Origin: Arthrobacter sp. 31Y | Lineage (GTDB): Bacteria; Actinomycetota; Actinomycetes; Actinomycetales; Micrococcaceae | Length of the DNA: 64,000 nt | NCBI RefSeq assembly: GCF_000526335.1 | Contig: NZ_JAFW01000001.1 | Coordinates: forward strand, 3,658,001-3,722,000 | Direction: 5' to 3' | Shown: piece after piece, positions 39,383 to 54,074 of the stretch | How positions within the stretch are numbered: position 1 is the first letter of the stretch | How the letters are laid out: each line of letters starts with the position of its first letter | Program-made: the position numbers and the translations under genes | The notes under the pieces: generated by a model | Database searches by the model: none | Told to the model about the DNA's origin: nothing | The model's input: the letters and a program-made list of their open reading frames with translations, nothing else

Positions 39383-39721
39383 TTATGCCCGTCCTTGGAA
39401 TCGTGCGGCGTCGAAGTTCGCGGCGCCTTCGGAGCGGCGTGCGTTGTCCGAGGCGGTCAAGTCGCCTTGGGTGAAGGCGGTGTTCATCCCGGATTGGCCG
39501 GTCACGATGCCGGCCAGGGCGGTGTTCAGTTCGGAGGCGACGAGGTCGGACCGGTTTTTGAAGGAGTCGAACGCGGCTTTGCCGGCGCCGCTGAATTTGC
39601 CTTCGAGCGGGGTGACGGCGTCCACGAAACGGCGGACCAGCGCGCCGAGGTCCTGGTGGGACGCGTCGGTTTGTTTGCTCAGGTTCCCGAGTGTTTCGGC
39701 TCCCATGTCAAAGATGGCCAT
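39383..39721 (-). CDS. ESX-secreted-type helical protein, first gene of toxin operon
   Basis: 112-aa protein starting MAIFDMGAETLGNLSKQTDA, with two amphipathic helices around a FSGAGKAAFDSFKNRSD turn, which resembles the WXG-like turn. The frame is open to 39778, but the ATG at 39721 begins the conserved part and has a GGGG stretch upstream. It is the promoter-proximal gene of the operon; the phased CACCTAG array A lies 176-270 bp upstream. Confidence 0.78.
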   Translation of the reverse strand: MAIFDMGAETLGNLSKQTDASHQDLGALVRRFVDAVTPLEGKFSGAGKAAFDSFKNRSDLVASELNTALAGIVTGQSGMNTAFTQGDLTASDNARRSEGAANFDAARFQGRA

Positions 39722-39896: not shown

Positions 39897-39991
39897 CACC
39901 TAGGGCCGAAAAGCACCCTCTAGGTGCCGTTTCGGGCCTGTCTAGGTGCTGAAAACCCTCAAAATGAGTGCTCCCGGCGACCGACTAGGTG
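39897..39991 (-). repeat. Phased CACCTAG array A (21/22-bp period)
   Basis: On the plus strand CTAGGTG occurs at 39920-39926, 39942-39948 and 39985-39991, with a degenerate ATGAGTG at 39964-39970. Starts are 22, 22 and 21 bp apart. A further half-copy, CTAGGGC, is at 39900. Read on the minus strand, the heptamers are CACCTAG, CACTCAT, CACCTAG, CACCTAG, pointing at the toxin operon. Not coding: the spacing alternates 21/22. Confidence 0.85.
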
Positions 39992-40117
39992 GTCCTATGC
40001 GGACGCGTGGCCAAATTTGGCATCCCTCCACGAAGCCGGGAGTTCGTATGCCAGCCAGCCAGCCGCCGTCGTGCTCTAACTGGAAGTACGACGGCGGAGG
40101 GTGTGACTTTGGTGCCG

Positions 40118-40237
40118 ACCGCTTAGCTGACGCTGACCAAGACTTGGTCGGTAAGGGCGAGGATGCCGGGCCAGCGGTTACCCATGCCGTTGAGGGCTAG
40201 CTGCGCCAAGGGGCTGGCCTTGGAGTCCACTCGAGCT
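40118..40237 (-). pseudogene. Vestigial coding fragment behind the SUKH gene
   Basis: Minus-strand frame encodes RLARVDSKASPLAQLALNG followed by MGNRWPGILALTDQVLVSVS and a stop at about 40118-40120. It has strongly protein-like composition but overlaps the stop of the SUKH gene in another frame and has no start. Likely the end of a gene that was replaced. The rest of 39992-40117 shows no feature. Confidence 0.4.
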
Positions 40238-40814
40238 AATCTTCGATCCAATACTGGGCAGTGGGATTCATTTTCGCGGCTAGCTTCCAAAAAGCGTCGC
40301 TGTTCATGTCGAACCAGCCATCTCCATCTTTGTAGAAGATGCCCTGCGTGAATGCGACGGCAAGAGTTGCAAGCATGTCCCGGATGGAGTTGTGCCTGAG
40401 CTTGTTTTCAACGTTTTCGAAGTCAAAGTCGTACACCGGCTGATGGTCGATCGCCGAGCAGTCTACGAACACATAGCCCCCAGAGTTGTCTTCGAGAAGT
40501 GGAAGCCACGACGAGTTCTCGTGGTACTCGTTGACGAATCGGTCGTAAGTTTCCAACGCTTCACGAAGACTAAGAAGGTAGTAGCCGGGCAATAAATACA
40601 TGTCGTTCAAAAGTACGTCCGGGCCTGAATTCGTCCCATCGTGCCATCCGTAATGGGCAATGAGATCTGCACCGGGCCGAAGGCCACGTGCTGTGAGTTC
40701 TTCGGTTACGGTTTGGGCGGGAAGTCCAGGCCTCAGCAGTCTTGATGCACCAAGTTGCAGTTGCGCCAGGGACTCATCAATGGTCTTCATCGAAACGGTC
40801 ATCTCATGTTCCAT
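40236..40814 (-). CDS. SMI1/KNR4 (SUKH)-family immunity-type protein
   Basis: 192-aa protein. N-terminal helix KTIDESLAQLQLGASRLLRP, then the SUKH-like LRPGADLIAHYGWHDGTNSG (an acidic, Trp-containing loop), NDMYLLPGYYLLSLREALET, and a WLPLLEDNSGGYVFVDCSA strand pair typical of the fold. SUKH proteins are common immunity partners of contact-dependent nucleases. Start uncertain: ATGs at 40814, 40802 and 40790. It lies upstream of array A on the same strand as the toxin operon; its own cognate toxin is not in the window. Confidence 0.85.
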   Translation of the reverse strand: MEHEMTVSMKTIDESLAQLQLGASRLLRPGLPAQTVTEELTARGLRPGADLIAHYGWHDGTNSGPDVLLNDMYLLPGYYLLSLREALETYDRFVNEYHENSSWLPLLEDNSGGYVFVDCSAIDHQPVYDFDFENVENKLRHNSIRDMLATLAVAFTQGIFYKDGDGWFDMNSDAFWKLAAKMNPTAQYWIED

Positions 40815-41073
40815 GGGGCAAATCTTGCATAGGATCTCCATTGATGCCAGCGCCAACGGCCGGTGGGCCTCGTAGCCTACTTGCGGCGCGTGAGGACACG
40901 GATGCAGATCCAAGTGGCAAGCTACGAGACATGAAAACATCTGCCTAAGTTAGCGCCGTTCTTGACCCAGTTCCTTGGTGGGGCTGCTTGAAGCACATTC
41001 CGGATATCACTCGAAAACATCGGCGGCGGATCGAGCCGGCTTGCCAGTCGCTGGATGCCGCTTGAGCAGTCTT

Positions 41074-41502
41074 TCAGTGGTCGCCCAAACCCCAAGTTGT
41101 GAGGCTGCCGCCCGGGCAAGAAACCAATAGCAACCCCTCCGGACCGTTGATCGACCAAGCTTCGTAGAGTTTGTCTGCCGAGACATCAATAGCGCTACCG
41201 TCCGCGAAGTCCACATGAAGAGTGCCACTGTCGTTAGCGAATCCGGCCGTGACTGAGGACCGGGCGATCGACAGGGCTGGCCCCAACAGGGAAGGATCCC
41301 CGGCGGGGTCAAGACGATGATTTTGGCCCGAAGGGGTCTTGTAGATGAAGGCAGTCTCGACCCTGAGAATGATGCCGCCGTGTGTGTGGATGCTGAAGGC
41401 GTAGTCGACCGTGCACATAGCAACGTCGTTCCGCCCGGATGTGGTGGGCCAGATCCAGAGCCCGCGCTCGTTCACTGGTGCGCCGTTCCTGTTCGTGTCC
41501 AC
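41074..41502 (-). CDS. DUF6188-like protein, putative immunity accessory
   Basis: 142-aa protein beginning with GTG 41502. Contains IHTHGGIILRVETAFIY, NHRLDPAGDPSLLGPALSIA, LHVDFADGSAIDVSADKLYE and a terminal WGLGDH. This beta-rich layout (a strand with VE then DG...I.V......EAW) matches the DUF6188 group often found in actinobacterial immunity clusters. Function unknown. Overlaps the upstream gene by 31 bp. The 260-bp stretch 40815-41073 to its 3' side holds only a weak ORF and no feature I can support. Confidence 0.65.
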   Translation of the reverse strand: MDTNRNGAPVNERGLWIWPTTSGRNDVAMCTVDYAFSIHTHGGIILRVETAFIYKTPSGQNHRLDPAGDPSLLGPALSIARSSVTAGFANDSGTLHVDFADGSAIDVSADKLYEAWSINGPEGLLLVSCPGGSLTTWGLGDH

Positions 41503-41984
41503 CTCTTGAGCTCCGGGCAGGCTGCATCGACGAAACGAACGATCACCTGCATGGCGTTAGGTTCTTCACCCCACCCATCGTCGTACGCGTCGTAGGCGTC
41601 GTCGAGGTCAACCAACTCCTGGGCAATGGGGTGACCTTCATGGCCGACAACCCTGTGTGCCCACGATGTGAGTTCCCGTATCCGCACGTTGCCTTCGATG
41701 GCTCGGCGGGCGTAGAAGTGGGCCGCTAAGAGCTTCGCTTCGTCGCCGGTCATCTCAACTGCTGCCAAGCCAAGCTCATTGAGGGCATCGTCGATGAGAA
41801 CTCGAAGCTCGAAGACGTTGATGTGTGGCGAAGCTCCGGCAAGCTCTCGGAGTCCCTGGCCGTCGTGCCCTTCGACCAGAGCTTCCGTCGCAGCCGAGAT
41901 CGCGGCCGTCGCAGCGTCCTGCCTGATAACCCACAAAGCTCTTGCCGAAATCAGGTCGATTGCCGCCGAACTGAAATTCTCCAC
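41472..41984 (-). CDS. Hypothetical helical protein, immunity-cluster member
   Basis: 170-aa soluble helical protein (DLISARALWVIRQDAATAAI, FELRVLIDDALNELGLAAVE, ELTSWAHRVVGHEGHPIAQE). A strongly acidic segment (DLDDAYDAYDDGWGEEPNAM) recalls the acidic faces of nuclease-immunity proteins. No family recognised. It overlaps the DUF6188-like gene by 31 bp, so they are co-translated. Start ATG 41984. Confidence 0.65.
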   Translation of the reverse strand: MENFSSAAIDLISARALWVIRQDAATAAISAATEALVEGHDGQGLRELAGASPHINVFELRVLIDDALNELGLAAVEMTGDEAKLLAAHFYARRAIEGNVRIRELTSWAHRVVGHEGHPIAQELVDLDDAYDAYDDGWGEEPNAMQVIVRFVDAACPELKRWTRTGTAHQ

Positions 41985-42083
41985 ACCATTGCCTTTCGAC
42001 GACTTTGGAGTTCCTGGGTCAGCTCATGGTGCCATGACGCATGGGCTTTTCGGGTGAGTAATACCCAGACGCGGTGATGGCGC

Positions 42084-42155
42084 CACTCATTTTAGGGGCT
42101 TTTAGCACCTATTTGTGTTCTGGCAGCACCTAGTTTGGCGGTTTTCGGCACGTAG
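42084..42155 (+). repeat. Phased CACCTAG array B (21/22-bp period)
   Basis: CACTCAT (42084), CACCTAT (42106), CACCTAG (42127) and CACGTAG (42149) are spaced 22, 21 and 22 bp. The first two units share the linker pattern CACTCATTTT-N2-GGG-N-TTTT-N-AGCACCTA with array A. Oriented toward the small membrane-protein gene at 42269. The stretch 41985-42268 has no gene. Confidence 0.85.
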
Positions 42156-42268
42156 TCGCGGATGTGTTGGTGCAGGCTGTAGGGGTCAAAGCAAGATGGT
42201 TCTTCGCTAGGGGCAGTCATGATTCGGAATCGCATCAGCAAGACCTTTCCTCAATGGCAGGAGGATCG

Positions 42269-42463
42269 GTGAGTAAGGTTCCACATCCATTTCAAGTCGT
42301 GGCGTTCTTCCTTATGGCCGTCAATTTCGCGTTGTGGCAGCCGTTCGTGTGGTGGCGTGCCGGTGCCGCGGTTCTCATGCTGGGGTTCGGTTGCTACGGC
42401 GTTTATGTATTGAGGCGGAGCAAGCGCAAGGAATCCATCCAGGAGTCCAGTGAGCTTGAGTGA
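42269..42463 (+). CDS. Small two-helix membrane protein downstream of array B
   Basis: 64-aa protein with two membrane segments (PFQVVAFFLMAVNFALWQPF and a second near GAAVLMLGFGCYGVYVL), then a basic and acidic tail. GTG 42269 is chosen because AGGAGG at 42259-42264 fits it; an ATG at 42254 would place that ribosome site inside the gene. Function unknown; it is the only plus-strand gene in this stretch and lies ~114 bp after array B. Confidence 0.7.
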   Translation: MSKVPHPFQVVAFFLMAVNFALWQPFVWWRAGAAVLMLGFGCYGVYVLRRSKRKESIQESSELE

Positions 42464-42477
42464 CCGGGAAGAGTGAT

Positions 42478-42509
42478 GATGGCCCGTGGATTGGTGTCCG
42501 CGGGCCATC
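42478..42509. terminator. Bidirectional hairpin between convergent genes
   Basis: GATGGCCCG (42478-42486) pairs with CGGGCCATC (42501-42509), 14-nt loop. It sits between the stops of the small membrane protein and the frameshifted minus-strand gene. No long T-tract, so termination strength is uncertain. Confidence 0.5.
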
Positions 42510-42515
42510 TCGTTG

Positions 42516-43105
42516 TTAATGGGTGTTTTCGTCGGGGCGAAGGCGGTTCTGCAGATCGGGGTCACCGAAGCCGGACACGAAGCCGAAGTCGTGTTCTCCG
42601 TTCTTCGGAGGGAGCTCGCGCTCCAGTTTCAGTGCCGTCGTCGGCGTGAACAGCGTTTTCGCGATTCCGCTTTCTGTATCGAAGGTGAAGGACCCGAAAA
42701 TTGTCCGGTCTACCCTGTGCCTCAGCAGGAGCGTCGTGTCCGAGCCGTTCACTTCACAAGCGACCGGGTGGTAGTCGTCCAGTTGCCGGCCCCATATGGG
42801 TAGGGAGAGCGGGAACGAGAGTTGGACAGCCTCAGGAAAAGAGAACGGGATGCGGTCAATGGAAAGGCTGAAATCATCGACGCCATCAGTTTGCAGAGTG
42901 AGGGAGCGGGGGTCGAATGTTCTCGTCGCCCCGTCCGGTAACTCCTTCGCAGACCAAATGAAGGCCCTTGGGTGTGCACCGAAACTGCATGCCTCACCAA
43001 GTGGTTGCCGCTCTTGCAATACGAGGTGCCGTTATAGGCGCTTGCTTGCCCACCGCCCAGCGCTTTTCCGATTGCGATCGCCAGCTGCTCAGAGGAAGTG
43101 TCCAC
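42516..43105 (-). pseudogene. Hypothetical gene with a one-base frameshift near 43020
   Basis: The frame from ATG 43105 reads MDTSSEQLAIAIGKALGGGQ then GTSYCKSGN and degenerates. The neighbouring frame from 43019 (a TTG without ribosome site) continues LQERQPLGEACSFGAHPRAF and runs 167 residues to 42516, ending RLRPDENTH. Adding one base in the TATTG at 43019-43021 joins them (GTSYLQERQPLG). Either a real 1-bp deletion or a sequence error. Function unknown; soluble, beta-rich. Confidence 0.6.
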
Positions 43106-43128
43106 GCCTCATCCTTGCACGAGCCCGC

Positions 43129-43632
43129 TTAGGAGGGGTCGCCGTCGTTGTTCGTCAGCAGGAACTTGCGCAAAAGGTTGGCGAGTTGAGTCCGCTCGGT
43201 CTTGGACAGTCCTTCGAGCATCTTGTGTTGGTTCTCTACGTGGTGCTCCACCACCTCATCCACCAGGGCCAGTCCCTCAGGGGTGAGGCTGATCAGTAGT
43301 TGCCGACGGTTGTCCGGGTTGGTCTCACGGTGAACCAGCCCGCGGTTGACGAGTCGGTCCACGCGGTTGGTCATGGCTGCGGAACCGATCATGGTCAGAC
43401 TGGCCAGTCGTCCCGGAGTGAGCGGAGCCTCGGGTGCCGAGCGGCGGAGCGTTGCCAGGACGTCGAACTCCCAGGGCTCCAGTCCAAACCGGTTCATGAA
43501 CTTCTGGACGTCCAGTGACGCCAGGCGGCTAGCCCTGTTCAGCCGGCCCACAACGCCCATGGAGCTGACGTCCAGATCGGGGCGCTCGTTGTTCCACTGA
43601 TCAAGAATCATGTCTACTGCGTCGCGGTCCAT
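43129..43632 (-). CDS. MarR-family transcriptional regulator
   Basis: 167-aa regulator. Winged helix at ~residues 45-115 (LATLRRSAPEAPLTPGRLAS, TMIGSAAMTNRVDRLVNRGL and the wing RETNPDNRRQLLISLTPEG). Flanking dimerisation helices. GGAGGA precedes the ATG. It is divergent from the EamA transporter and probably controls it through the palindrome at 43691-43702. Confidence 0.92.
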   Translation of the reverse strand: MDRDAVDMILDQWNNERPDLDVSSMGVVGRLNRASRLASLDVQKFMNRFGLEPWEFDVLATLRRSAPEAPLTPGRLASLTMIGSAAMTNRVDRLVNRGLVHRETNPDNRRQLLISLTPEGLALVDEVVEHHVENQHKMLEGLSKTERTQLANLLRKFLLTNNDGDPS

Positions 43633-43690
43633 CGTCCTCCAATGCTTGACCTCAAACAGTACAGCACCTACATTGTCTTACATCAAATAG

Positions 43691-43702
43691 TTCGACATCG
43701 AA
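43691..43702. promoter_or_regulatory. Candidate MarR operator
   Basis: TTCGACATCGAA, a near-perfect 12-bp palindrome in the 87-bp divergent region between the MarR and EamA genes, 17 bp before the EamA start. TTCGA-type half-sites are usual for this regulator family. Confidence 0.5.
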
Positions 43703-43719
43703 ATGTATGGAAGTGAACA

Positions 43720-44682
43720 ATGTCTGCTTTGACGACCGCTGGCAAGCCGATCGGTTCCGGCCTGGCGAAGGCGTCTCCTCGAGACCTCTTCATCACTGCA
43801 CTAGCGCCCATGGTGTGGGGATCCACCTACCTGGTGACTACCGAGTTTCTCCCCGCCGACCGGCCGCTCCTGGCCGCAACCGTGCGGGCTTTGCCGGCGG
43901 GCATCGTGCTGATGCTTGTGACGCGAACGTGGCCGCGGGGGAGCTGGTGGTTCAAAGCCTCGGCGCTGGGCGCGCTCAACATTGGGCTGTTCTTCTTCCT
44001 TCTGTTCTTCACCGCATACCAACTGCCGGGTGGGCTCGCTGCACTCGTCATGTCCATTCAGCCCCTATTCGTGCTCTTTCTTGGGGTGCTGCTGCTGGGG
44101 GAGAAGATCCGCCTTATGCATCTGGTTGCCTGTGCGGTGGGCGCGGCGGGTGTCGGCTTGCTCGTCCTGCGATCCGAAGCGTCGCTGACTTTTGTGGGTG
44201 TGCTCGCCGGGATGGCCGGTGCGCTGAGCATGGCGGCGGGGATAGTGCTCACCAAACGCTGGGGAAGGCCCGACGGCGTGGGGCTGCTTGGGTTTACCGG
44301 CCTGCAGTTAGCGATGGGTGGAGTGATGCTGCTGCCCGTGACGTTGGTGGTTGAGGGGCTGCCGGGGTCGGTTACGGTGCCTAATTTGGCGGGCTTCGCT
44401 TACCTCAGCGTCATCGGTGCTTTGGCTGCCTATGCCGTGTGGTTCAGGGGGATCCAACGGCTGCCAACGATGGTGGTGTCGTTCTTGGGATTCCTGAGCC
44501 CGCTCGTGGCTACGGTGCTGGGGTTCGTGTTCCTGGGGGAAGCGTTGTCGGGGTGGCAGTTGGTGGGTGCGGTATTGGTGCTGGGGGCGGTTGGGTTGGT
44601 GCAGCGGGCGGGCGGTTCGCTCTCAGCACCAGGGCAGAAGAAGTCCTCTCTGGCGGCGGGGAGTCCAGGAAGCAGCATCTAG
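43720..44682 (+). CDS. EamA/RhtA-like DMT-family exporter
   Basis: 320-aa inner-membrane protein with ten predicted helices in two EamA repeats (LAPMVWGSTYLVTTEFLP ... and PTMVVSFLGFLSPLVATVLG). Drug/metabolite transporter superfamily; relatives export amino acids, purines or toxic metabolites. The C-terminal tail is Ser/Gly-rich. The MarR protein encoded divergently is the likely local regulator. Nothing recognised in 44683-44828. Confidence 0.92.
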   Translation: MSALTTAGKPIGSGLAKASPRDLFITALAPMVWGSTYLVTTEFLPADRPLLAATVRALPAGIVLMLVTRTWPRGSWWFKASALGALNIGLFFFLLFFTAYQLPGGLAALVMSIQPLFVLFLGVLLLGEKIRLMHLVACAVGAAGVGLLVLRSEASLTFVGVLAGMAGALSMAAGIVLTKRWGRPDGVGLLGFTGLQLAMGGVMLLPVTLVVEGLPGSVTVPNLAGFAYLSVIGALAAYAVWFRGIQRLPTMVVSFLGFLSPLVATVLGFVFLGEALSGWQLVGAVLVLGAVGLVQRAGGSLSAPGQKKSSLAAGSPGSSI

Positions 44683-44828
44683 GTAGGTCATCGCGTGGCT
44701 GCCCAGGAGCCCTTGCCACCCTAGAAGCTCGGCATTGTTGTTCGATCCGTAAAGCTTGCTGACCTTGTAAGTAGTAGAACCGGTCCACCCTTCCGTGGAA
44801 GATCGCTCGCCCGTGCCGCGATTACTAA

Positions 44829-46007
44829 CTATCTGCGGCCTGACACGCCAATGGAGATCTGCTCTTGATAAGCGATGTGCTCAAAATTCAGCACGTGGGC
44901 TGCGGAGACAGTAAGCTTCCCGACTGGCTCACCCAGGTTCAGCACGGTACCGTCTGGACGAATAGTCAGGGCATGCCCATCAAGTAGCTTGTGGCAGTTT
45001 GGGCATAGACACAGGATGTTGTCCAACGTATCGGGCCCATTGTGGGGTATGCCTAGCGGTCGAATGTGTGCACCCTCCGAATATGGCCCTGCGGAAGTGA
45101 CAAGCCGGGCGCTGCAAATCTGGCATGTGTGGTCATAAAGCCGCTTGATCGAAGCTGCGACTTCATAGTTTCTAACGATGCGACTGATTTGTGACGGGCG
45201 GCGTGGTGGTGCCAGGTCTTCCCCACGCGTTAGGGCGATGGCAGTCTCGTCCGGGATTAGGCTGTCGCCTGCAACTGCCCGCAGCTGATAGATAAGTATT
45301 TTCCAGCCATCACGTATGCCCCAGCTCCAATTGGTGACTGTGAACAAGCCGAGATAAATGTACTGTTCGTGTGACCGATCCCCTGTGAGCACCGACTCCT
45401 TGACCAGCACCCGCACAGGCCGGCCCAGATTGTGGTTTTCAACCAGGCCGAGATTTCCCTTCTCGAGCTTTTGGTCAGCTACGTGTCTGCCCGAATTGGC
45501 ATTGCGTCCGCCAAAACCGGTGTAGGTGATGAGGTCACCTTGGATCTCATCATCGGAGTACCCCGCTGAAAGACAAATGGATTGTGTGCCGTGTGCCTGT
45601 CCAGCGATGCCTGCCTGCAGCGTCCTGTGCACGCCGGCGTCGTAAGCCTCTCGTCGATTAGCAAAAATGGTACCGGGAGGACATTCGGGGATTTCTCCAT
45701 ATTGGGGTGCCAGTTGGGCATCGTCCCGTACGACAAGTTCAATACCAAAGCGTTTGAGGGTCCGCCGCGTCTCATCCCCGCCGGAAAATAGGCGAATCGA
45801 AAGGGGACCGTTGGCCGGATGTTGCTTTCCATGTGCAACGGCCAAGAGCGGCTTCGAATCCACCAGCGTGCCATCAACGTTAGCGAAGTACTTACGTGAA
45901 GCCTGCTGCTCATATTTTTCAAGGAAAGCAGTTCGCCCTAAAGTTTGAAACTCGGCGACGGTCCTCGCGATTGCTGATGCGTCAGTCAGCTCCGATAATG
46001 CGCGCAC
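44829..46007 (-). CDS. SRA (YDG)-HNH modification-dependent restriction endonuclease
   Basis: 392-aa protein. Middle region (~115-265) is an SRA/YDG domain (ANRREAYDAGVHRTLQAGI, ITYTGFGGRNANSGRHVADQ, VLVKESVLTGDRS, GLFTVTNWSWGIRDGWKI), which flips and reads modified cytosine. The C-terminal HNH nuclease (~295-350) has CQICSARLVTSAGPYSEGAH and LDNILCLCPNCHKLLDGHAL, with four Cys that can hold a structural zinc. The architecture is that of type IV enzymes such as ScoMcrA/Sco5333 relatives, cutting phage or foreign DNA carrying 5mC. Starts with GTG 46007. Adjacent to a McrC relic, so this is a small restriction island. Confidence 0.88.
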   Translation of the reverse strand: MRALSELTDASAIARTVAEFQTLGRTAFLEKYEQQASRKYFANVDGTLVDSKPLLAVAHGKQHPANGPLSIRLFSGGDETRRTLKRFGIELVVRDDAQLAPQYGEIPECPPGTIFANRREAYDAGVHRTLQAGIAGQAHGTQSICLSAGYSDDEIQGDLITYTGFGGRNANSGRHVADQKLEKGNLGLVENHNLGRPVRVLVKESVLTGDRSHEQYIYLGLFTVTNWSWGIRDGWKILIYQLRAVAGDSLIPDETAIALTRGEDLAPPRRPSQISRIVRNYEVAASIKRLYDHTCQICSARLVTSAGPYSEGAHIRPLGIPHNGPDTLDNILCLCPNCHKLLDGHALTIRPDGTVLNLGEPVGKLTVSAAHVLNFEHIAYQEQISIGVSGRR

Positions 46008-46034
46008 AGAAGTAGCCCCCGGTCCTATCCCTTT

Positions 46035-46063
46035 TAGCGACGTGGTCTGAGTTCACGTCGCTA
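46035..46063. promoter_or_regulatory. Perfect inverted repeat upstream of the SRA-HNH gene
   Basis: TAGCGACGTG (46035-46044) and CACGTCGCTA (46054-46063), 9-bp loop, 27 bp upstream of the start codon. Could be an operator for a controller protein or a 5'-leader hairpin. The rest of 46064-46328 shows no supported gene. Confidence 0.5.
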
Positions 46064-46328
46064 GATCGTCTGAGTCTTGGCATGGTGCCAACGATCTACT
46101 CAAATATACGAAAAATGGCGTCACGTTCCGCATGTGTCCCTCACTTATTATGGGGATCTATTTCTCGGGTCGGCCCTGGAAGGCCAGGTTACCCGCCGGA
46201 CGCTTAGGGTCACTTCACGTCTGCACCGACCTTCTCCAGGTGCCCATCGCCCAACAACCCCACCTCTGGCACCCTCGTGGTGATGCTGTCGCCAGGGTGA
46301 CGATGGGGTTGCAAAGAAGGAGCCCAGC

Positions 46329-46755
46329 ATGGGACTCATGCATATTGGCCTGTTCGCCACGCTCGATGGCGTCGCTCAGGCGCCCGGCGACCCTGAGGAG
46401 GATCCAGCCGATGACTTCGCGTTCGGCGGTTGGCAGGCGCCATTGATGGACGAGATGGTGGGGCAGCAGATAGACGCTGCCATGTAGGCGACGGACGCGT
46501 TGCTGCTTGAGCGCCGAACGTACGACAACTTTGCTTCGTATTGACCGCAGCAGGATGGCAGAATCGCACAGTTGTTCAACCGCATTCCCAAATATGTGCC
46601 TTCGCGACAGTCGCTGAATCCCGAATGGGCCGGACCTCGTCAGCTCCGTGCAGCCGTTACGCGAGAAGCACCAGATTATCCACGTGATTGGCAGCCTTGA
46701 CTTGGTGCAGACGTTGTTCGCCGATCGCTTGTTCGATCAGCTCAACCTCTGGAAT
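46329..46755 (+). pseudogene. Decayed RibD/dihydrofolate-reductase-like gene
   Basis: Plus-strand reading starts MGLMHIGLFATLDGVAQAPG with GGAG before the ATG, the usual opening of RibD C-terminal/DHFR-like proteins. It continues GGWQAPLMDEMVGQQIDAAM, then an in-frame TAG (46486-46488), LLLERRTYDNFASY, another stop, IPKYVPSRQSLNPEW, and after a shift VIGSLDLVQTLFADRLFDQL. The end of the family domain is replaced by a McrC fragment. Clearly non-functional. Confidence 0.8.
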
Positions 46756-47053
46756 GTGGATGTGGTGCATTCCGTCCGCGGACGGCCCTCGATGATCTTT
46801 GATGCGAAGTGCAAGGCCGCATCTGCCAGTGGAGCGTCTCCCAACGCGGACCATTACCAAATCCTGGCTTACTGCACCGCGCTTGGGGTGCCCCGTGCTT
46901 GGCTCGTTTACGCAGGCGCCGGACAGCCCCGTTCCCGCCGAGTACTGAACATGGGAGTGTCCGCTGGATCTTTCTCGGGAACCGGAGGCTTTGCTGGCGC
47001 GGGTGGGTGAATTAGCAAGTCGTGCCTACAGCGAATTAGCCGTGCGGCAGTAG
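46756..47053 (+). pseudogene. McrC C-terminal fragment (5-methylcytosine restriction component)
   Basis: Directly fused in frame to the DHFR-like fragment, the frame continues VDVVHSVRGRPSMIFDAKCK, NADHYQILAYCTALGVPRAW and LVYAGAGQPRSRRVLNMGV. This is the C-terminal PD-(D/E)xK-like part of McrC (D-A-K, then ADxYQxLAY). After a frameshift near 46960 it ends PLDLSREPEALLARVGELAS and a stop at 47051-47053. No McrB or McrC N-terminus remains. A remnant of a former McrBC system, 0.7 kb from the SRA-HNH enzyme. Confidence 0.75.
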
Positions 47054-47259
47054 GGTCCCAGAAGTCTTCGGGGCGAGTAACAACAAAGCTTGCCCACGTC
47101 TGCGTATATGACCCCGACCCGAAGCGGAAGATGATGGCACACCACAGTGCAGATCAGTAAGTAATCCTGATCGGGAATATCGGATGTCTGATTCCTAGGT
47201 CCTGCACCGCAGTGACAGATGACGTTACGCTATTTGGGCGACATCCTAGGGGGACGATT

Positions 47260-47466
47260 TTGAAAATGACTACTTCGCGTAAGATCCGCGTCTTGAACAT
47301 TGCATCAACAGTCCTGCTGCTGACCGTCTTGACTCTGCAGTTCACAAAAGTATTCGACGGGTTCTGGACTATGACGCTGCTCGTGCTTATCGCGGCCCCG
47401 ACGACGGTTGCCTGGGTGATTCTTGAGAGACGGCAGGGCGCGGAAAAGATGCGTGACCGGGCCTAG
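47260..47466 (+). CDS. Small two-helix membrane protein
   Basis: 66-68-aa protein (TTG 47260 or ATG 47266) with two membrane segments (VLNIASTVLLLTVLTLQFTK and MTLLVLIAAPTTVAWVILE) and a short charged tail. AGGGGGA at 47248-47254 precedes the start. It is paralogous in layout and leader sequence to 48867-49073: both have a G-run, GAY-GATTT, a TTG and then an ATG one codon later. Function unknown. Confidence 0.65.
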   Translation: MKMTTSRKIRVLNIASTVLLLTVLTLQFTKVFDGFWTMTLLVLIAAPTTVAWVILERRQGAEKMRDRA

Positions 47467-47485
47467 TCTGCTCAAGGCGCGACAC

Positions 47486-48730
47486 TCAGTCCCCGGCAAC
47501 CCGTCCTGCTACATACTCCGCGTCCAGCCCCACTCCGCCGACGATTGCTGAGTAGTGCCGGGTTAGCCACGGCAGGCCCACGACGTATAGTCCGGGGATT
47601 TCCGTGACGCCTCGTGTGTGCTTGGGGTAGCCCCATTCGTCCACAAGGGGCATGTCGACGAACTGGAAGTCGAGTTTGTACCCGGTGCCCCATATGAAGG
47701 ACGTGACGTTCGCGTCGACGAGGTTCAGCTCAGCCTGATCCAGGGGGAGCCAATTATCTAGCGGCGGAGGCTGCTGCTCCGGTGCGTCGATCCCTGCCGC
47801 CGCAATGTACGCATCAATCGCCCTTCCCGAGCGTTGCGCGAAGATCGACTCAACTGTGCCAAGACGCTCAGGGAGGTCATCGCTGAAGGTAAGGTCGCCG
47901 TCGTCGATCGTTTCCAAGTGGCCGTGTAGGTGAATGCCGCGCCTGCTGATTTCCCGGAGGTGGATGCTGTGGCCGCCGTCGATGCCGGAGAGCAGGGGAT
48001 TGGGCGCGAAGCGTAATGCAGGGGAGGGGAGCGCCTCGGTGGTGAGGGCGTTGACGCCGTAGTCGGGGCCGTGTTTGCCGGTTTCAAGCATCCAGTAGAT
48101 GAGGTCTTGGCCGCGGTATCGGCGGGGTGCTTCGGGAACGACGGATACGGAGAGGTGGACCTCGCGGCCGGCGGCGTGCAGTTCCTCGGCGATCTGCCCA
48201 CCGGACTGGCCGGTGCCGACTATGAGCACGGCCCCAGTCGGGAGCTGCGACGGATTGCGGTAGTCGTGGGTATGCAGTTGAGTCACGCCGGCGGGGAGCT
48301 TGGCGGCTAAGGCTGGAACCTTGGGGACTTGGTAGGCGCCCGTTGCCAGGACGACGTTGCGTGCGCGCAGGTTCCCGAGCGATGTCTCAAGGTTGAATCC
48401 ACCGTCCGGCGCCGAGGACAACCGGGTCACATCGACGCCCGTCTGGACGGGGGCGGCTATCCATTCGGCGTACCGCCTGAAGAGGTTCACAACAGCGTTG
48501 CGGGAGATGAACGCGTCCCGGTCGTCGCCGTCGTACGGCATCCCGGGGAGGTCCAACGCAAGGTTCGGGGTGTTCATGTAGAAGCTGTCCCAGCGGTCCT
48601 GGAATGCGCCGCCAAGTGAGTCGCGCCGTTCCAGGATCTGATGCTCGACGCCGAACTGCGTGAGCCAGTAGCTCGTCGTGAGGCCCGCTTGGCCTGCGCC
48701 GATGATGACCGTGTCAGAGGTCGGTCCCAT
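47486..48730 (-). CDS. Flavin-dependent monooxygenase-like NAD(P)-binding oxidoreductase
   Basis: 414-aa protein with two dinucleotide-binding motifs: VIIGAGQAGLTTSYWL for FAD at residues ~8-23 and LIVGTGQSGGQIAEELHAAG for NAD(P)H at ~169-190. The linker GAYQVPKVPALA and the terminal YVVGLPWLTRHYSAIVGGVG are typical of the FMO/CzcO-like group. Likely an NADPH-dependent hydroxylase or reductase of unknown substrate. It stands alone on the minus strand between two paralogous small membrane proteins on the plus strand. Confidence 0.92.
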   Translation of the reverse strand: MGPTSDTVIIGAGQAGLTTSYWLTQFGVEHQILERRDSLGGAFQDRWDSFYMNTPNLALDLPGMPYDGDDRDAFISRNAVVNLFRRYAEWIAAPVQTGVDVTRLSSAPDGGFNLETSLGNLRARNVVLATGAYQVPKVPALAAKLPAGVTQLHTHDYRNPSQLPTGAVLIVGTGQSGGQIAEELHAAGREVHLSVSVVPEAPRRYRGQDLIYWMLETGKHGPDYGVNALTTEALPSPALRFAPNPLLSGIDGGHSIHLREISRRGIHLHGHLETIDDGDLTFSDDLPERLGTVESIFAQRSGRAIDAYIAAAGIDAPEQQPPPLDNWLPLDQAELNLVDANVTSFIWGTGYKLDFQFVDMPLVDEWGYPKHTRGVTEIPGLYVVGLPWLTRHYSAIVGGVGLDAEYVAGRVAGD

Positions 48731-48866
48731 GGGTGAACTCTACGCTTGGGGCAAGCGTTTGGGCATGGGTGAAGGTGGGTCCTCCTAGTGGTCCTGCGCG
48801 TCGAACAGGCCGCCAGTTCGGTGTCGATTGACGTAGGCTTTCGGGAACAGAATCTGGGGGGATGAT

Positions 48867-49073
48867 TTGCGCATGTCGACAGCAAGCTTGATTCGGGCAC
48901 TTGATACCGCAACGTGGGTGGTGGCCGTTTTTAGCCTGGTACTGCTATTCAGCGGCAAACTGGACAACTTCTGGGCAACAGCGTGCCTTATTGCGACCGC
49001 TGCTCCCGCAATTGCCAGCTGGGTCATCAAGGACAGGAACCAAAGCGCAACCAAAGGTGACGAGCCGCAGTAG
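48867..49073 (+). CDS. Small two-helix membrane protein, paralogue of 47260-47466
   Basis: 66-68 aa, two membrane segments (DTATWVVAVFSLVLLFSGKL and ACLIATAAPAIASWVIKDR). GGGGGGA directly upstream of TTG 48867; ATG 48873 is one codon further. Same size, same helix spacing, same leader as the gene on the other side of the monooxygenase. The N-terminus has xxRxLDTATxVV against xxRVLNIASTVL. Unknown function. Confidence 0.65.
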   Translation: MRMSTASLIRALDTATWVVAVFSLVLLFSGKLDNFWATACLIATAAPAIASWVIKDRNQSATKGDEPQ

Positions 49074-49232
49074 CGCCCAAGTACTCCTCAGTGCCGGTGC
49101 CCTGAACGCCATAGTTTTGGCTCTCTGGAACAAATCCGATGGATAAATGTTCCCCAGCACTAGCCATCTGCTCAAATCTCTGTAGACTAGTTGGTGTTGT
49201 TGTGTTTGGCATTTGGTAGTTCAGGCAGTCCC

Positions 49233-49337
49233 CACGATCCTTCCGGATCGTGACTTTCTGAAGTAACTGTGGAGAACACCCCACACCCGGAGACCCGAAA
49301 GTCGGGACAATCTCCACCTTCAGTAAGGACTGAAAAA
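49233..49337 (+). promoter_or_regulatory. Structured 5' untranslated region of the cold-shock gene
   Basis: Perfect hairpin CACGATCC-TTCC-GGATCGTG (49233-49252), then CTTTC near 49254 that can pair with GAAAG inside a second hairpin CCCGA-AAG-TCGGG (49298-49310). GTAAGGACTGAAAAA supplies the ribosome site (AAGGA). Alternative pairing of the GACTTTC/GAAAGTC segments could act as the temperature switch known for cspA-type leaders. Confidence 0.5.
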
Positions 49338-49541
49338 ATGGCTACAGGTACCGTAAAATGGTTCAACTCCGAAAAGGGCTTCGGCTTCATCTCTCCTGAA
49401 GATGGCAGCCAGGACGTTTTCGCTCACTACTCTGCTATCAACTCCTCGGGCTACCGCTCCCTCGAAGAGAACCAGAAGGTTTCCTTCGACGTCGAGCAGG
49501 GCCCCAAGGGTCCCCAGGCAGTAAACATCCAGGCTGTCTAG
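49338..49541 (+). CDS. cspA: Cold-shock protein CspA family
   Basis: 67-aa single cold-shock domain. RNP1 KGFGFISPE (residues ~16-24) and RNP2 VFAHYSAI, with the conserved opening [17 protein letters not shown]. Nucleic-acid chaperone that melts RNA structure at low temperature or serves general translation. AAGGA lies 9 bases before ATG 49338; the longer frame is untranslated leader. Followed by a strong terminator, so monocistronic. Confidence 0.97.
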
Positions 49542-49558
49542 TCTTCGGATAACTTAGA

Positions 49559-49592
49559 AGCAGGGCCGGGCGCTGACCGGCCCTGCTTTTTT
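49559..49592 (+). terminator. Rho-independent terminator of cspA
   Basis: Stem AGCAGGGCCGG / CCGGCCCTGCT with a 7-base loop followed by TTTTTT. One of the clearest intrinsic terminators in the window. Confidence 0.92.
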
Positions 49593-49657
49593 GTCTGCCC
49601 CCACATGGAAGATGTGTTCTAGTTCATTCAGTGACTATCGAACATATATCCACATAC

Positions 49658-49679
49658 CGAATTACACCCATGTAATTCG
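49658..49679. promoter_or_regulatory. Perfect inverted repeat between cspA and array C
   Basis: CGAATTAC-N6-GTAATTCG (8-bp arms). A+T-rich neighbourhood (ACATATATCCACATACC) about 210 bp upstream of the LuxR-type gene. Possible operator. The surrounding 49593-49767 contains no gene. Confidence 0.45.
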
Positions 49680-49767
49680 CCCCCAGCTCTCCGTAGCGTG
49701 GAACTTAATCCACCCGCCGAGCTGAGGAAGCACCCCAATGGATCCGATAACTTCTAAACGTCATTGC

Positions 49768-49859
49768 CACCTAGACGAGTCCTCCGAGCACCTAATTTGG
49801 CCCAAATCACCACCTAGAGTGCCCCAAAACTGTCTGTGCAAGGCTGTTTTGCCACCTAG
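49768..49859 (+). repeat. Phased CACCTAG array C (21/22-bp period)
   Basis: CACCTAG at 49768, CACCTAA at 49789, CACCTAG at 49811 and 49853 (steps 21, 22, 42 = 2 x 21; the slot at 49832 is degenerate). The second unit linker, TTTGGCCCAAAT, is palindromic. Linkers of units 1 and 2 resemble those of array D. Oriented toward the LuxR-type gene, which begins 28 bp after the last copy. Confidence 0.87.
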
Positions 49860-49886
49860 TCCCCTTTTCAAGATCTAGCCTCCGAA

Positions 49887-52490
49887 GTGAGCCGCATGTC
49901 GGGCATCCACAAAAACAGAAGGCTAGGTCGCGTGTTCGATTCAGAGGTTCAACGAATCCTGGACTTTGTTGCACGCGGCATCGGAGTAAGGGTTGTCGGC
50001 TCACCGGGTAGCGGCAAAACGACGGTCCTACGCAGCGTCATAGGCAACTTGGAGAAGTCCGGAGTCTCGGTGCACTTCATCAGTGGCCTGCGCACGCATA
50101 GAACCATTCCGTACGCGGCCATCAAGGGGCTTGGGCTGGATGTGAGGCCGGGCCGCAGCGGGGTGCTCGACATCGCTGACGTGTTCTCAAGCCAGTTGGC
50201 CAAGACCGGTAAACACTTGCTGGTAGTTGACGATCTTCACCTGGTGGACAGCGAATCCTTAGCTGTCCTGGAAGCTGTGAGGCGGAGATCGGATTGTCCG
50301 ATGGTAGCTACGGCCCCCGAAACGTGGTCTTTCTCCAGAGGTCAGCTGGCCGTCCTCAACAACGGCCGGGAGGCGCATCTGCAACTGGATCCGCTCCACT
50401 ATGAGCAGGTCCACTTCCTCATCGCACAGGTTCTTGGTGCCCCGGCAGACGCAGACACAACTGCACGCATCCTCACCAAATCCGCCGGCAACCCGCGCCT
50501 CATAGTAAGGATCGCCGAGACCGCCTCACTGAGCAATCTTCTGGTCATGAAGGACAAACAATGGTCCATGTCGGCCGAAAGCCTATGGAACGAGCACCTG
50601 CGCGGCACAGTCGAGGCGCTCTTGGCTGAACTAAGCCCTGACGAGTTCACAGCTCTACATATCATGGCGATTCTTGGTACAGCACGGGTCGACGTACTCC
50701 ATAAGGTCATTCACTCGGACGCCCTGGAAGGCCTGGAACGCAGGGGTTTCCTGTCCGTACTGGCAGATCAACACAATGGCTCGATTGCTGCCATCAGCCC
50801 GCCAGTCATCGCTGACTACTTCCGCGGGAGCAAGAACCTGCGGGACCGCAAGCTGCTACGCAGCAAGATAGCGGGCGTCCTTGAGGCCGCTCCACACGAG
50901 GTCCCGGAAGAGCGCGCGACGTCGGACGGCCTCTCGCGAGTTCTTTCATCACTCCGACTTGAGAAGGGTGACGACGACGCCATTACCTCCAGGCAAATCC
51001 ACGAGCAAAGTACGGAGCGGGAACGCATCCGCTTTGAACGCTGGCAGGCTAACAAATCAGCGGCAAACGCCGCGGCCTTGCTTCGCATCTACTGGGGCGC
51101 GCCCCTGAACGTTGAGCGTGCAAGGCGTGTCTGCTCCGAAACAACAGACTTCGACGCCGATCCCAAAGACCTCCTGTTTGTCACCATCACCGAAGCCATG
51201 CTTGCCATCCACACCGGACGCGGCACGAGCGCCGCCGTCGACATCCTCCAAAAGTTCGCTGGGGACAATCCGCATCTGAGTGCGGAAATCGACGATGCCA
51301 TCTTGTTCCTCAAAGCGTCCCACGGCAGGGTTCCGCTGGACACCAGTCCGGTGCCAGGAGCTATTGAAAACCGCAAGACGGGAATGGGGAGCTTGGTCCA
51401 CGGGCTGTTGGAGCTTTACCGCCTCAACCCTGCAGCAGCACTGGAAGCTGTTGATGGTCCAGGTGACGACGACGCCTTCCCACATCTCCGCCCTTTCATC
51501 CGCAGTTTCGCATTGTTCGGGGCCGGTCGGGTGGAGGAGTCCTTGGTTCTTGCCTTGGACTGGCGAGCCGAAGCGCGAAAGAGTTTGGACCAGTTCGGTG
51601 TGATCACCAGCAGCTACGTGGCCGCGCATGGCCTGCTCTACGGCGGACACTTCGAAGAGGCGGAGTACCTCATGAGCAGCGTGTTTGCGATGGGTCGCCC
51701 GGGCTTCGTTGTGGACTCGCTCTACGACGCAATGCTCAGGCTCGCAGGACTCAGACACGCAACAACGGCGTTATTGCCTGCGCTTTCCATAGCAGCCCAG
51801 GCTCGAACGGAAGTGGCGGATGTTGGGCCGCTTCCCGGCATTGGCAAGGGAGCTTACGAGCTCATAGTCCACAACAACACTCAACCGTCGACGTTCGACC
51901 GTAAAGCCACCAAGCTCATCAGGCGGCAGCTGAAGAGCGGTTACGTCCTCGAAGCCATGATGACTGCGCTGCTTTGTACGTGCCTTTGCCCGGGCCGCCC
52001 GGTTCTGGACCTATTGCAGAAAATCCTCCGGGATAGTGGCCTTAACGTCCACGATCAGCTCCTTGCCATAGCCTCGGCGGTGGTCGAGGGGGACCATAAG
52101 CTGCTTGGGCTTCTGCTCAAACACTACGAGCCTGACATCGACACATATCAGGTTGGAATGCTGCTCCGGGGAGCTCTCAAACGTCACGTGATCGAAGGCG
52201 ATGCCACCGCCGCTGACGCCATGGCACAGGCGTCCTCTGTCTTTGCTGTCCGGTTCCCGTCAGCAAACGAGCAGCTCTCCTTCAATTCGTTCAGGACCAC
52301 ACCGCTGACCGAAAGGGAGATCGAGGTAGCCATCTTGGCCGGACACCTCACCAATGTGGAGATCGGGGAACAGCTGGGGATCAGCGCCAGGACGGTAGAG
52401 AACCATATCTCCAACGCCTTGCGGAAGTCGGGTGCAACGTCCCGCAATAGTCTCTTCATGCTCGTGGGGAATTCACTTCCGCCGCGCTGA
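49887..52490 (+). CDS. Large ATP-binding LuxR-family regulator (LAL/MalT-like)
   Basis: 867-aa regulator. STAND-like ATPase at the N-terminus: Walker A GSPGSGKTT (residues 38-46) and Walker B LLVVDDLHLVD (111-121). A long helical, TPR-like middle region (~380-780) follows. A C-terminal LuxR/GerE helix-turn-helix covers ~807-862 (LTEREIEVAILAGHLTNVEI, then GISARTVENHISNALRKSGA). GTG 49887 or ATG 49896 may be the start; ribosome site weak. Array C lies immediately upstream, making this protein the best candidate to control, and perhaps bind, the CACCTAG elements, including those before the toxin operon. That link is inference. Confidence 0.9.
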   Translation: MSRMSGIHKNRRLGRVFDSEVQRILDFVARGIGVRVVGSPGSGKTTVLRSVIGNLEKSGVSVHFISGLRTHRTIPYAAIKGLGLDVRPGRSGVLDIADVFSSQLAKTGKHLLVVDDLHLVDSESLAVLEAVRRRSDCPMVATAPETWSFSRGQLAVLNNGREAHLQLDPLHYEQVHFLIAQVLGAPADADTTARILTKSAGNPRLIVRIAETASLSNLLVMKDKQWSMSAESLWNEHLRGTVEALLAELSPDEFTALHIMAILGTARVDVLHKVIHSDALEGLERRGFLSVLADQHNGSIAAISPPVIADYFRGSKNLRDRKLLRSKIAGVLEAAPHEVPEERATSDGLSRVLSSLRLEKGDDDAITSRQIHEQSTERERIRFERWQANKSAANAAALLRIYWGAPLNVERARRVCSETTDFDADPKDLLFVTITEAMLAIHTGRGTSAAVDILQKFAGDNPHLSAEIDDAILFLKASHGRVPLDTSPVPGAIENRKTGMGSLVHGLLELYRLNPAAALEAVDGPGDDDAFPHLRPFIRSFALFGAGRVEESLVLALDWRAEARKSLDQFGVITSSYVAAHGLLYGGHFEEAEYLMSSVFAMGRPGFVVDSLYDAMLRLAGLRHATTALLPALSIAAQARTEVADVGPLPGIGKGAYELIVHNNTQPSTFDRKATKLIRRQLKSGYVLEAMMTALLCTCLCPGRPVLDLLQKILRDSGLNVHDQLLAIASAVVEGDHKLLGLLLKHYEPDIDTYQVGMLLRGALKRHVIEGDATAADAMAQASSVFAVRFPSANEQLSFNSFRTTPLTEREIEVAILAGHLTNVEIGEQLGISARTVENHISNALRKSGATSRNSLFMLVGNSLPPR

Positions 52491-52572
52491 GCCGGGATAG
52501 GCTGGATCCATCTCAAACCACCGGTGACTAGCACTCCCAGCTATGCCCGGGTCCCCAGCGCGAAGGGTTTAA

Positions 52573-53835
52573 GTGAGCAACTCTCCGGCTTTGGCCCGCC
52601 GACTAGGCACGTTCGACGCATCGCTGATCGGGCTAGGGTCCATGATCGGCGCGGGTGTTTTCGCGGCGTTCACCCCGGCCGCTGCAGCCGCAGGATCCGG
52701 TCTGCTCATCGGCTTGGTGGTGGCCGCCTTCGTAGCCTTCTGCAACGCCACATCCTCTGCCCAGCTTGCTGCTGCCTATCCAACCTCCGGCGGTACCTAT
52801 ATTTACGGCCGCGAACGGCTCGGCCCATGGTCCGGGTTTTTGGCAGGATGGGGCTTCGTCATCGGCAAGACGGCGAGCGCCGCTGCGATGGCAATGACCT
52901 TCGCCACCTATGCCGCACCGCAAGGGTGGGAGCGCCCGGTGGCGATTGCCGCCGTCGTGGTTTTGACTGCGGTGAACTATCACGGGGTAACCCGAACCGC
53001 CGGGCTGACGCGCGTGCTGGTGATAGCAGTGCTTGCGGCCCTGGCCATTGCTGTGACTGCGGTCTGGGGTGGCTCAGGTCCTGACTTTGGCAGCTTTGTG
53101 GGCGACGGACTTTTGGCCAGCGGCTGGTACGGGATTCTGCAATCGGCGGGGCTGCTGTTCTTCGCGTTCGCCGGGTACGCAAGGATTGCGACTATGGGCG
53201 AGGAAGTTCGCGAACCCAAGCGCACCATTCCGCGGGCGATCAGCATTGCCCTGGGTATCACCATCATCATCTACGCCGTCATAGCAGTTACCTTGCTGGC
53301 GGCCCTTGGCCCCGATGGGGTGGCTGCCACGCCCACGCCGTTGGCCGATGCTGTCAGTGCCGGCACGTTGGCTTGGGCTGCGCCGGTGGTGCGCGTCGGT
53401 GCTGCCGTGGCGTCCCTAGGCGCGCTGTTGGCGCTCATCGCAGGACTCGGAAGGACGAGCCTGGCCATGGCCCGCGAACACGACCTGCCCCATTGGCTCT
53501 CCGCAGTGCACCCTCGGTACAAGGTCCCGCATCGTGCCGAGATCGCGCTGGCTGCGGTGATCTGCGTGATCATCGCAGTGGCTGATCTTCGCGGGGCAAT
53601 CGGCTTTTCCTCATTCGGAGTTCTGCTCTACTACTTGGTGGCTAACGTAGCTGCCTACACTCAGCCAGCGGAAGACCGGCGGTATCCGAAGTTCCTGCAG
53701 GTTGCGGGCGCGGTTGCCTGCGTGGTTCTCGTTGCTACGCTGCCGCCGATATCTGCTGGCGTGGGTGTGCTGATGTTTGCGGTTGGGATTGTCTACCGCT
53801 TGGTGCGTTTGCGGCTTAGCCGTTCAGCCCGCTGA
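52573..53835 (+). CDS. APC-family amino acid permease
   Basis: 420-aa inner-membrane transporter with twelve hydrophobic segments. Helix 1 motif SLIGLGSMIGAGVFAAF (substrate backbone binding), LAAAYPTSGGTYIYGRERLG in helix 3 region and the later GLGRTSLAMAREHDLPHWLS loop are typical of the amino acid/polyamine/organocation superfamily. Substrate not predictable. GTG 52573 with GAAGGG upstream. It follows the LuxR-type gene by 82 bp. Confidence 0.93.
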   Translation: MSNSPALARRLGTFDASLIGLGSMIGAGVFAAFTPAAAAAGSGLLIGLVVAAFVAFCNATSSAQLAAAYPTSGGTYIYGRERLGPWSGFLAGWGFVIGKTASAAAMAMTFATYAAPQGWERPVAIAAVVVLTAVNYHGVTRTAGLTRVLVIAVLAALAIAVTAVWGGSGPDFGSFVGDGLLASGWYGILQSAGLLFFAFAGYARIATMGEEVREPKRTIPRAISIALGITIIIYAVIAVTLLAALGPDGVAATPTPLADAVSAGTLAWAAPVVRVGAAVASLGALLALIAGLGRTSLAMAREHDLPHWLSAVHPRYKVPHRAEIALAAVICVIIAVADLRGAIGFSSFGVLLYYLVANVAAYTQPAEDRRYPKFLQVAGAVACVVLVATLPPISAGVGVLMFAVGIVYRLVRLRLSRSAR

Positions 53836-53846
53836 TTTTCCGGCTG

Positions 53847-53885
53847 GGCACGGCCCCACCAGGGGGTGGTAGGTGGAGCCGTGCC
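53847..53885 (+). terminator. Hairpin after the APC permease
   Basis: GGCACGGC (53847-53854) pairs with GCCGTGCC (53878-53885). Inside, CCCCACC pairs partly with GGGTGG/GGTGG. Strong G+C stem without a T-tract; probable transcription end of the permease gene. Confidence 0.55.
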
Positions 53886-53981
53886 GTCATGCCTCCTACG
53901 CCAGGGCGGGTGGGACTCCCGCCGGACACCGGGATATCCGCCCCGAAGGCACAAGAAGAGACTATGTGTGGTTTCCGGGCT

Positions 53982-54074
53982 CTAGGTGTTCGGAGAGGGC
54001 GAATAGGTACCGATGTGGCGCGAATTAGGGGTGGTGGGGACCAAAATTAGGTGCTGGACGAGGGCGTCTAGGTG
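53982..54074 (-). repeat. Phased CACCTAG array D (21/22-bp period)
   Basis: Plus-strand heptamers CTAGGTG (53982), ATAGGTA (54003), TTAGGGG (54025), TTAGGTG (54047) and CTAGGTG (54068): steps 21, 22, 22, 21, the most regular of the four arrays. On the minus strand the first units read CACCTAGACG and CACCTAATTTTGG, echoing array C. The stop codon TAG of the adjacent membrane-protein gene is the TAG of the last heptamer. Confidence 0.88.

Follow-up and report, generated by a model that had tools for sequence, protein, structure and literature searches.

The window analysed here is a 64,000-nucleotide stretch of Arthrobacter sp. 31Y (NCBI RefSeq assembly GCF_000526335.1, contig NZ_JAFW01000001.1, here C1; C1:3658001-3722000 of a 5.08-Mb genome). 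It contains four arrays (A–D) of a CACCTAG heptamer. Array C ends 27 nt ahead of a gene for a MalT-like LuxR regulator of the STAND/LAL type, while array D precedes a short structured RNA (Table 1). We consider it probable (roughly 0.85), on the sequence evidence set out below, that the arrays are operators through which this regulator activates its own gene, the RNA and a regulon of antagonism genes. An initial annotation, made from the DNA letters, had described four non-coding heptamer arrays and suggested that a protein binds them cooperatively on one face of the helix; to that account the analysis adds the identity of a likely regulator, the geometry of the promoters, a putative regulon and the RNA.

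Table 1 Features of the window discussed in the text (window coordinates)
Feature	Position	Strand	Details
Array A	39920..39991	-	Heptamers 39985-39991, 39964-39970 (CACTCAT), 39942-39948, 39920-39926; ~200 nt upstream of WXG100-like gene
-10-like box of array A	39897..39902	-	TAGGTG, 17 nt past last heptamer; imperfect
Array B	42084..42155	+	CACTCAT, CACCTAT, CACCTAG, CACGTAG; steps 22, 21, 22
-10-like box of array B	42173..42178	+	CAGGCT, 17 nt past last heptamer; imperfect
Array C	49768..49859	+	CACCTAG, CACCTAA, CACCTAG, variant GTCTGTG, CACCTAG; steps 21, 22, 21, 21
-10 box of array C	49876..49881	+	TAGCCT, 16 nt past last heptamer
STAND/LAL LuxR regulator	49887..52490	+	AAA ATPase, helical-repeat middle, C-terminal GerE helix-turn-helix (TVENHISNALRK)
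Array D	53982..54074	-	Five sites CACCTAG, CACCTAA, CCCCTAA, TACCTAT, CACCTAG; steps 21, 22, 22, 21
-10 box of array D	53959..53964	-	TAGTCT, 17 nt past last heptamer
Structured, probably non-coding RNA downstream of array D	53842..53957	-	Ends in GC-rich hairpin
WXG100-like gene downstream of array A	39383..39721	-	WXG100 below curated cut-off in both libraries; scanned reference without start codon
DUF6507 gene after WXG100-like gene	38685-39056		
794-aa open reading frame of WXG100 module	36296-38680		
Small predicted membrane protein downstream of array B	42269..42463	+	64 aa; GGAGG before GTG; read by eye

Phased heptamer arrays and their promoter geometry

The four arrays and their steps were found as first described, except at one end of array A: the extent 39920-39991 was borne out, while the further heptamer placed at 39897-39903 sits on the opposite strand and overlaps the expected -10 position (TAGGTG). 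With no step assumed, the distances between exact CACCTA sites of the window that share a strand and lie within 70 bp of each other were 21 (four times), 22 (twice), 42 (once), 43 (twice), 64 (once) and 65 (twice), the 12 distances including one pair outside the arrays (33120/33141). The initial annotation had named shuffled DNA as the yardstick for this phasing; four arrays with a phased-array score of at least 6 lie in the window, and block-wise dinucleotide shuffling, done 60 times, produced no such array (mean 0.0). CACCTAG by itself occurs 11 times against 4.16 expected. Judged by open reading frames (ORFs) of at least 120 aa, the arrays are indeed intergenic, with a partial exception for array D, which shares bases with the end of ORF 54068-54487 and with the very start of ORF 54072-54467. 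Coding repeats were considered as an explanation of the arrays and rejected.

The arrays look like promoter-operators. From 120 distinct arrays, collected with steps fixed beforehand, a 70% identity filter retained 55 non-redundant ones. A TANNNT -10 element begins 16 or 17 nt past the last heptamer in 25 of these and 37 or 38 nt past it in 12, while any other offset up to 49 nt accounts for at most one array each; the remainder, at most 18, lack TANNNT at both favoured positions. In the 37/38-nt group, the gap, read by eye, holds one further degenerate site, such as GTCTAGG or CCTGTGG. It follows that the -35 position is occupied by a heptamer. Steps in the 55 arrays were 22 bp in 85 cases, 21 bp in 72 and 42–44 bp in 13, counts that are not independent evidence because the scan admitted only those steps.

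A fixed distance between heptamer and -10 element would also be seen if an alternative sigma factor used the last heptamer as its -35 element, with the copies further upstream being secondary. We regard this as very improbable, since in array C two of the heptamers further upstream match the last one in conservation and keep the 21/22-bp steps, and since the motif tracks the LuxR helix (see below). It is also quite unlikely that the regulator, bound to the arrays, represses or silences the promoters instead of activating them: a site overlapping the -35 element can block RNA polymerase too, and the direction of the effect is unreadable from DNA, but a heptamer replacing the -35 element at one fixed -10 distance is what would be expected of an activator that substitutes for that element, and the sources consulted on MalT and IniR present both as activators. 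The chance that the arrays are mobile-element repeats, iterons or a CRISPR-like array, which share short direct repeats at steps of about 22 bp, is close to negligible. Rather than one long array of longer, near-identical units, there are 3–6 units of 7 bp per array, with mostly unrelated linkers, ahead of unrelated genes across the chromosome and with the promoter geometry kept. The initial annotation likewise judged the arrays not to be CRISPR-like; cas and replication genes were not the object of a dedicated search.

The regulator and its distribution

The regulator combines an N-terminal NTPase (AAA_22, 28.9 bits; cut-off 27) with a C-terminal LuxR/GerE helix-turn-helix (PF00196, 42.8 bits; cut-off 23.5), for which GerE (1fse) is the best solved relative, and a helical-repeat (TPR-like) sensor lies between them. 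The sequence holds GSPGSGKTT, a Walker motif, and a DD pair; among 45 sequences, G41 and G43 of the NTPase motif are invariant, and G38 and S42 nearly so. STAND folds (6mfv, Apaf-1) occur among the fold matches; in the VIA-align list, ORC, TnsC and other AAA+ chains score equally, so that list by itself points to AAA+ and not to STAND. Relatives of the regulator differ by an N or S in the recognition helix (TVENH or TVESH), at a position whose NarL equivalent presumably contacts bases. A paralogue in the same genome (L014, C1:2333078-2335609; 41% identity) has a TVESHISN helix, and no array was found with it.

Upstream arrays were scored for 66 LuxR homologues from selected loci, using a permissive CACNNAG scan of the 900 nt upstream and leaving out several 40–43% paralogues. 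At least two phased CACCTA heptamers precede all 33 class I orthologues (67–100% identity; L040 only partially), and an array lies ahead of the regulator in all 16 class II orthologues scored. Lack of conservation in close relatives had been named at the outset as a result that would count against the arrays; the outcome favoured them: across the 33 class I genomes, mean column identity is 0.94 in the first three heptamers of array C and 0.78 in the linkers (circular-shift p 0.03), with 0.59 in the 25 nt upstream and 0.89 downstream. The contrast weakens over the whole array (0.95 against 0.82), since the end nearest the promoter is conserved along its full length. Two genomes carry a second C-type array ~420-520 bp upstream of array C (L036, 858-949; L042, 955-1046).

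We counted CACCTA pairs (CACCTAN{15,16}CACCTA) in 206 genomes of the genus, 51 of which have a regulator match at E <= 1e-150. Four or more pairs were present in 36 of 39 TVENH genomes, compared with 0 of the 155 that have no such match (Fisher p 5e-36, not corrected for relatedness). Class I genomes contain 2–15 pairs each (31 of the 33 with at least four) and the five class II TVENH genomes 8–17; the 11 class II TVESH genomes have 0–2, and a further regulator-bearing genome, G005, has 0. In the 155 genomes without a match no more than two pairs were found in any one, 36 in total, spread over 31 genomes.

Recognition helix and heptamer change together

Within class II, arrays of CACGTAG, CACTGAG, CACTTAG or CACGGAG (one CACGCAG) stand upstream of 11 TVESH regulators, while five TVENH regulators have CACCTAG upstream. 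Pairs of CACKKAG, counted in 28 of the 206 genomes, number 8–20 in 11/11 TVESH genomes, 0–2 in 10 TVENH genomes and 0–4 in seven genomes lacking the regulator. The orthologous promoter of a circular bacteriocin, whose peptide is 93% identical between G022 and G044, shows the exchange directly: it carries four CACCTAG and one CACGGGT in a TVENH background (G022, L121), and CACGTAG, CACGGAG, CACTGAG, CACGGAG and CACTTAG in a TVESH background (G044, L202). A further set of 12 loci (L210-L221) comprises nine from another genus of the family (L216 not counted) and three from the same genus (L218-L220). In the other genus, six TVESHISN homologues (41–43% identity) are preceded by two or three phased CACGGAG, CACTGAG or CACTTAG sites.

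Taken with the unassumed 21/22-bp spacing and the fixed distance to the -10 element, this joint change of motif and helix supports the initial interpretation that a protein would bind cooperatively along one face of the DNA. That protein could in principle be another transcription factor, the LAL gene being one co-inherited target: to be a target does not prove a gene product to be the binder, and the co-occurrence screen covered the LAL regulator only. We find this unlikely, because in two genera a different recognition-helix residue in the LAL protein itself goes with a different heptamer, and because the arrays are nearly absent from genomes without it.

More distant paralogues with a TVENHISRAL helix mostly have CACTCAT-type chains upstream. 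Such 22-bp CACTCAT/CACCTAA chains precede L149, L150, L151, L152, L153, L155 and the second gene of L146, all with a TVENHISRAL-like helix, and may represent a third version of the code; in the group members L148 and L156 the chain is not clear.

Putative array targets

The initial annotation had proposed a genome-wide scan extended to relatives. In the genome as a whole, 12 matches to the pair pattern were found against three to a reversed control, and the scan turned up at least three further array loci, along with arrays in regulator-bearing relatives. One locus (C1:3436679, L022) is a near-copy of array A adjoining type VII secretion-like genes; a second (C1:1618822, L023) lies ahead of a daptide cluster, called from three NCBIfam equivalog models above cut-off (daptide RRE protein, aminotransferase and dehydrogenase); and a third (C1:3863128, L025) precedes a gene for a 156-aa protein with no family match. 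Pair matches beginning CACCTACTTCGCAGA at C1:3430849 and C1:3691120 showed no phased array and were provisionally taken for chance; they stay among the 12, and similar ones are counted in G083 and G059.

The arrays from other loci are a sample of targets picked for holding arrays, not a census, and in the family scans some minus-strand reference proteins lack the start codon and include the stop. Sampled arrays precede daptide clusters, a peptidase-inhibitor-I36 protein, a DUF2599 protein, ABC transporter genes and a circular bacteriocin (PF09221, 25.2 bits, cut-off 23.6; TIGR03651 below cut-off), whose SpoIIM-like partner falls below cut-off. The WXG100-like genes among the targets also score below cut-offs, and many targets are small proteins, by eye secreted or membrane-bound, without a family match. 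Small membrane-protein ORFs in L110 and L115 are preceded by arrays resembling B. Together, these targets may form a single antagonism regulon.

A structured RNA downstream of array D

The putative transcript after TAGTCT of array D is ~115 nt long and closes with a GC-rich hairpin (z -3.1). Aligning 33 sequences, 32 of them distinct, gave pairing in 97.4% of cells and double-sided changes at 13 of 35 pairs, a number reached in none of 500 shuffles and by no slid version; these counts lean towards the structure, to which the alignment had been fitted. A free RNAalifold fold of 11 sequences gives five pairs with double-sided changes. Searched with stricter filters, at which weak matches are lost, a model of the RNA (R1) occurs once in each of the 33 class I genomes and in none of the 173 others at E <= 1e-4, always 1.29–2.74 kb from the regulator gene in the class I genomes. 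Array D was found by script in 31 of these; in the other two (the window and L234) it was seen separately. A 21-aa ORF after array D was rejected as the product: most relatives lack its ATG, which makes a non-coding RNA the preferred reading.

The closest likeness is to 6C RNA (Rfam RF01066), a weak match of 25.9 bits, below the gathering score of 47. The match covers just the 3' part (53845-53910), whereas the array D RNA has a further 5' hairpin and is confined to class I genomes in this genus.

Proposed mechanism and points against it

We propose that the regulator would sense a signal, change state, perhaps through an ATP-dependent switch, and multimerise, its LuxR helix-turn-helix domains filling the heptamers side by side on one DNA face. 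The last protomer, at the -35 position, would recruit RNA polymerase to the TAGNNT -10 box. In this way, the regulator would activate its own gene, the small structured RNA from array D and genes of antagonism, namely the WXG100/type VII module, daptide and circular-bacteriocin clusters, secreted proteins and ABC exporters. The arrays and their conservation, the promoter geometry, the co-occurrence, the pairing of helix and motif, the downstream genes and the RNA structure are seen in the sequences; binding, cooperativity, the ATP switch, activation in place of repression, the signal and the unity of the regulon are inferred.

Several observations weigh against this proposal. The -10 boxes of arrays A and B are imperfect. 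In the class II sequences displayed, the Walker A lysine is replaced by R. The pairing of helix and heptamer has gaps: three TVENH class II arrays contain one CACGGAG site, the last site of L214 and L215 is CACCGAG, and an upstream array is missing at the other-genus homologues L217 and L221 and at five own-genus TVESHISN paralogues (L014, L154, L157, L218 and L158, the last being the same gene as L220). The TVENH/TVESH label needs just two changes on the tree (one or two in bootstraps), so the within-genus pairing rests on few events; the other genus lies outside this tree. Three TVENH genomes are poor in pairs (two each in G169 and G196, none in G167, whose regulator has 46% identity). Moreover, the reversed control pattern is not rare, with 121 matches against 344 in the 39 TVENH genomes (1–7 each), and equals the pattern count in G067, G065, G116 and G169; outside regulator-bearing genomes it is commoner than the pattern, which makes it a loose yardstick.

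Tentatively, and with the odds somewhat against it, we would go further and picture a system dedicated to sensing competition. A STAND protein, its Rap-like sensor perhaps binding peptides, would respond to a peptide or damage cue by polymerising on the phased arrays, firing the cell's set of weapons together with an obligate partner RNA. One helix position (N or S) would then mark two versions of the code, with many regulon promoters rewritten together between related species.

The arrays look like switches that would let a single large sensor protein bring rival-fighting genes and a small structured RNA into play. If this holds, the heptamer, its 21/22-bp step and its -35 position would be a readable code for antagonism genes in Arthrobacter-like soil bacteria, and could guide the discovery of new bacteriocins and type VII effectors. 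The system would also offer a natural test case of a transcription factor and its regulon shifting specificity together, and would add an RNA, below every Rfam gathering score, that is tied one-to-one to one class of STAND regulator.

Relation to known systems

MalT of E. coli is a STAND/LAL activator acting at MalT boxes, whose sequence appears to differ from the heptamer. The arrays here, by comparison, have 3–6 heptamers at 21/22-bp steps ending at the -35 position, with antagonism genes and an RNA downstream. The best NCBIfam match of the regulator is IniR (51.5 bits, far short of the cut-off of 750), a STAND-type regulator of mycobacteria that controls iniBAC, for which the available portion of the source mentions no repeat array (PMC5760070).

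SARP-LAL regulators such as PimR are described, in the accessible part of one source, as binding cooperatively to heptameric direct repeats in antibiotic control (PMC5930380). These regulators act through a SARP domain at the N-terminus, and their CGGCAAG units are 11 bp long, whereas the present regulator has a LuxR helix-turn-helix and 21/22-bp units. No SARP domain appears among its Pfam matches up to E 0.001, and no 11-bp units were seen, the CACCTA distances in the window being 21/22 bp and multiples; a SARP operator was therefore rejected. MilO, a LuxR-family regulator of mildiomycin, has three direct repeats upstream of its target, according to the part of the source available; these are 11 bp long with 2-nt spacers, and the milA promoter alone was notably bound (PMC11784345). 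Among the literature matches listed, subscription journals lying mostly outside the coverage, neither CACCTAG arrays nor such a regulon were described.

Other features of the locus

Two similar ORFs of 216 and 218 aa (34937-35587 and 35633-36289), perhaps immunity genes, lie in tandem next to the 794-aa ORF in the WXG100 module. Upstream of the regulator locus is a cspA thermoregulator (RF01766, 81.4 bits; 49195-49589), the sole Rfam match in the window at gathering threshold. About 100 bp upstream of array C, a palindrome, GAATTACA-CCCA-TGTAATTC, follows a CATATCCACATA-like sequence (49641-49680), and a similar form is found upstream in L039-L042.

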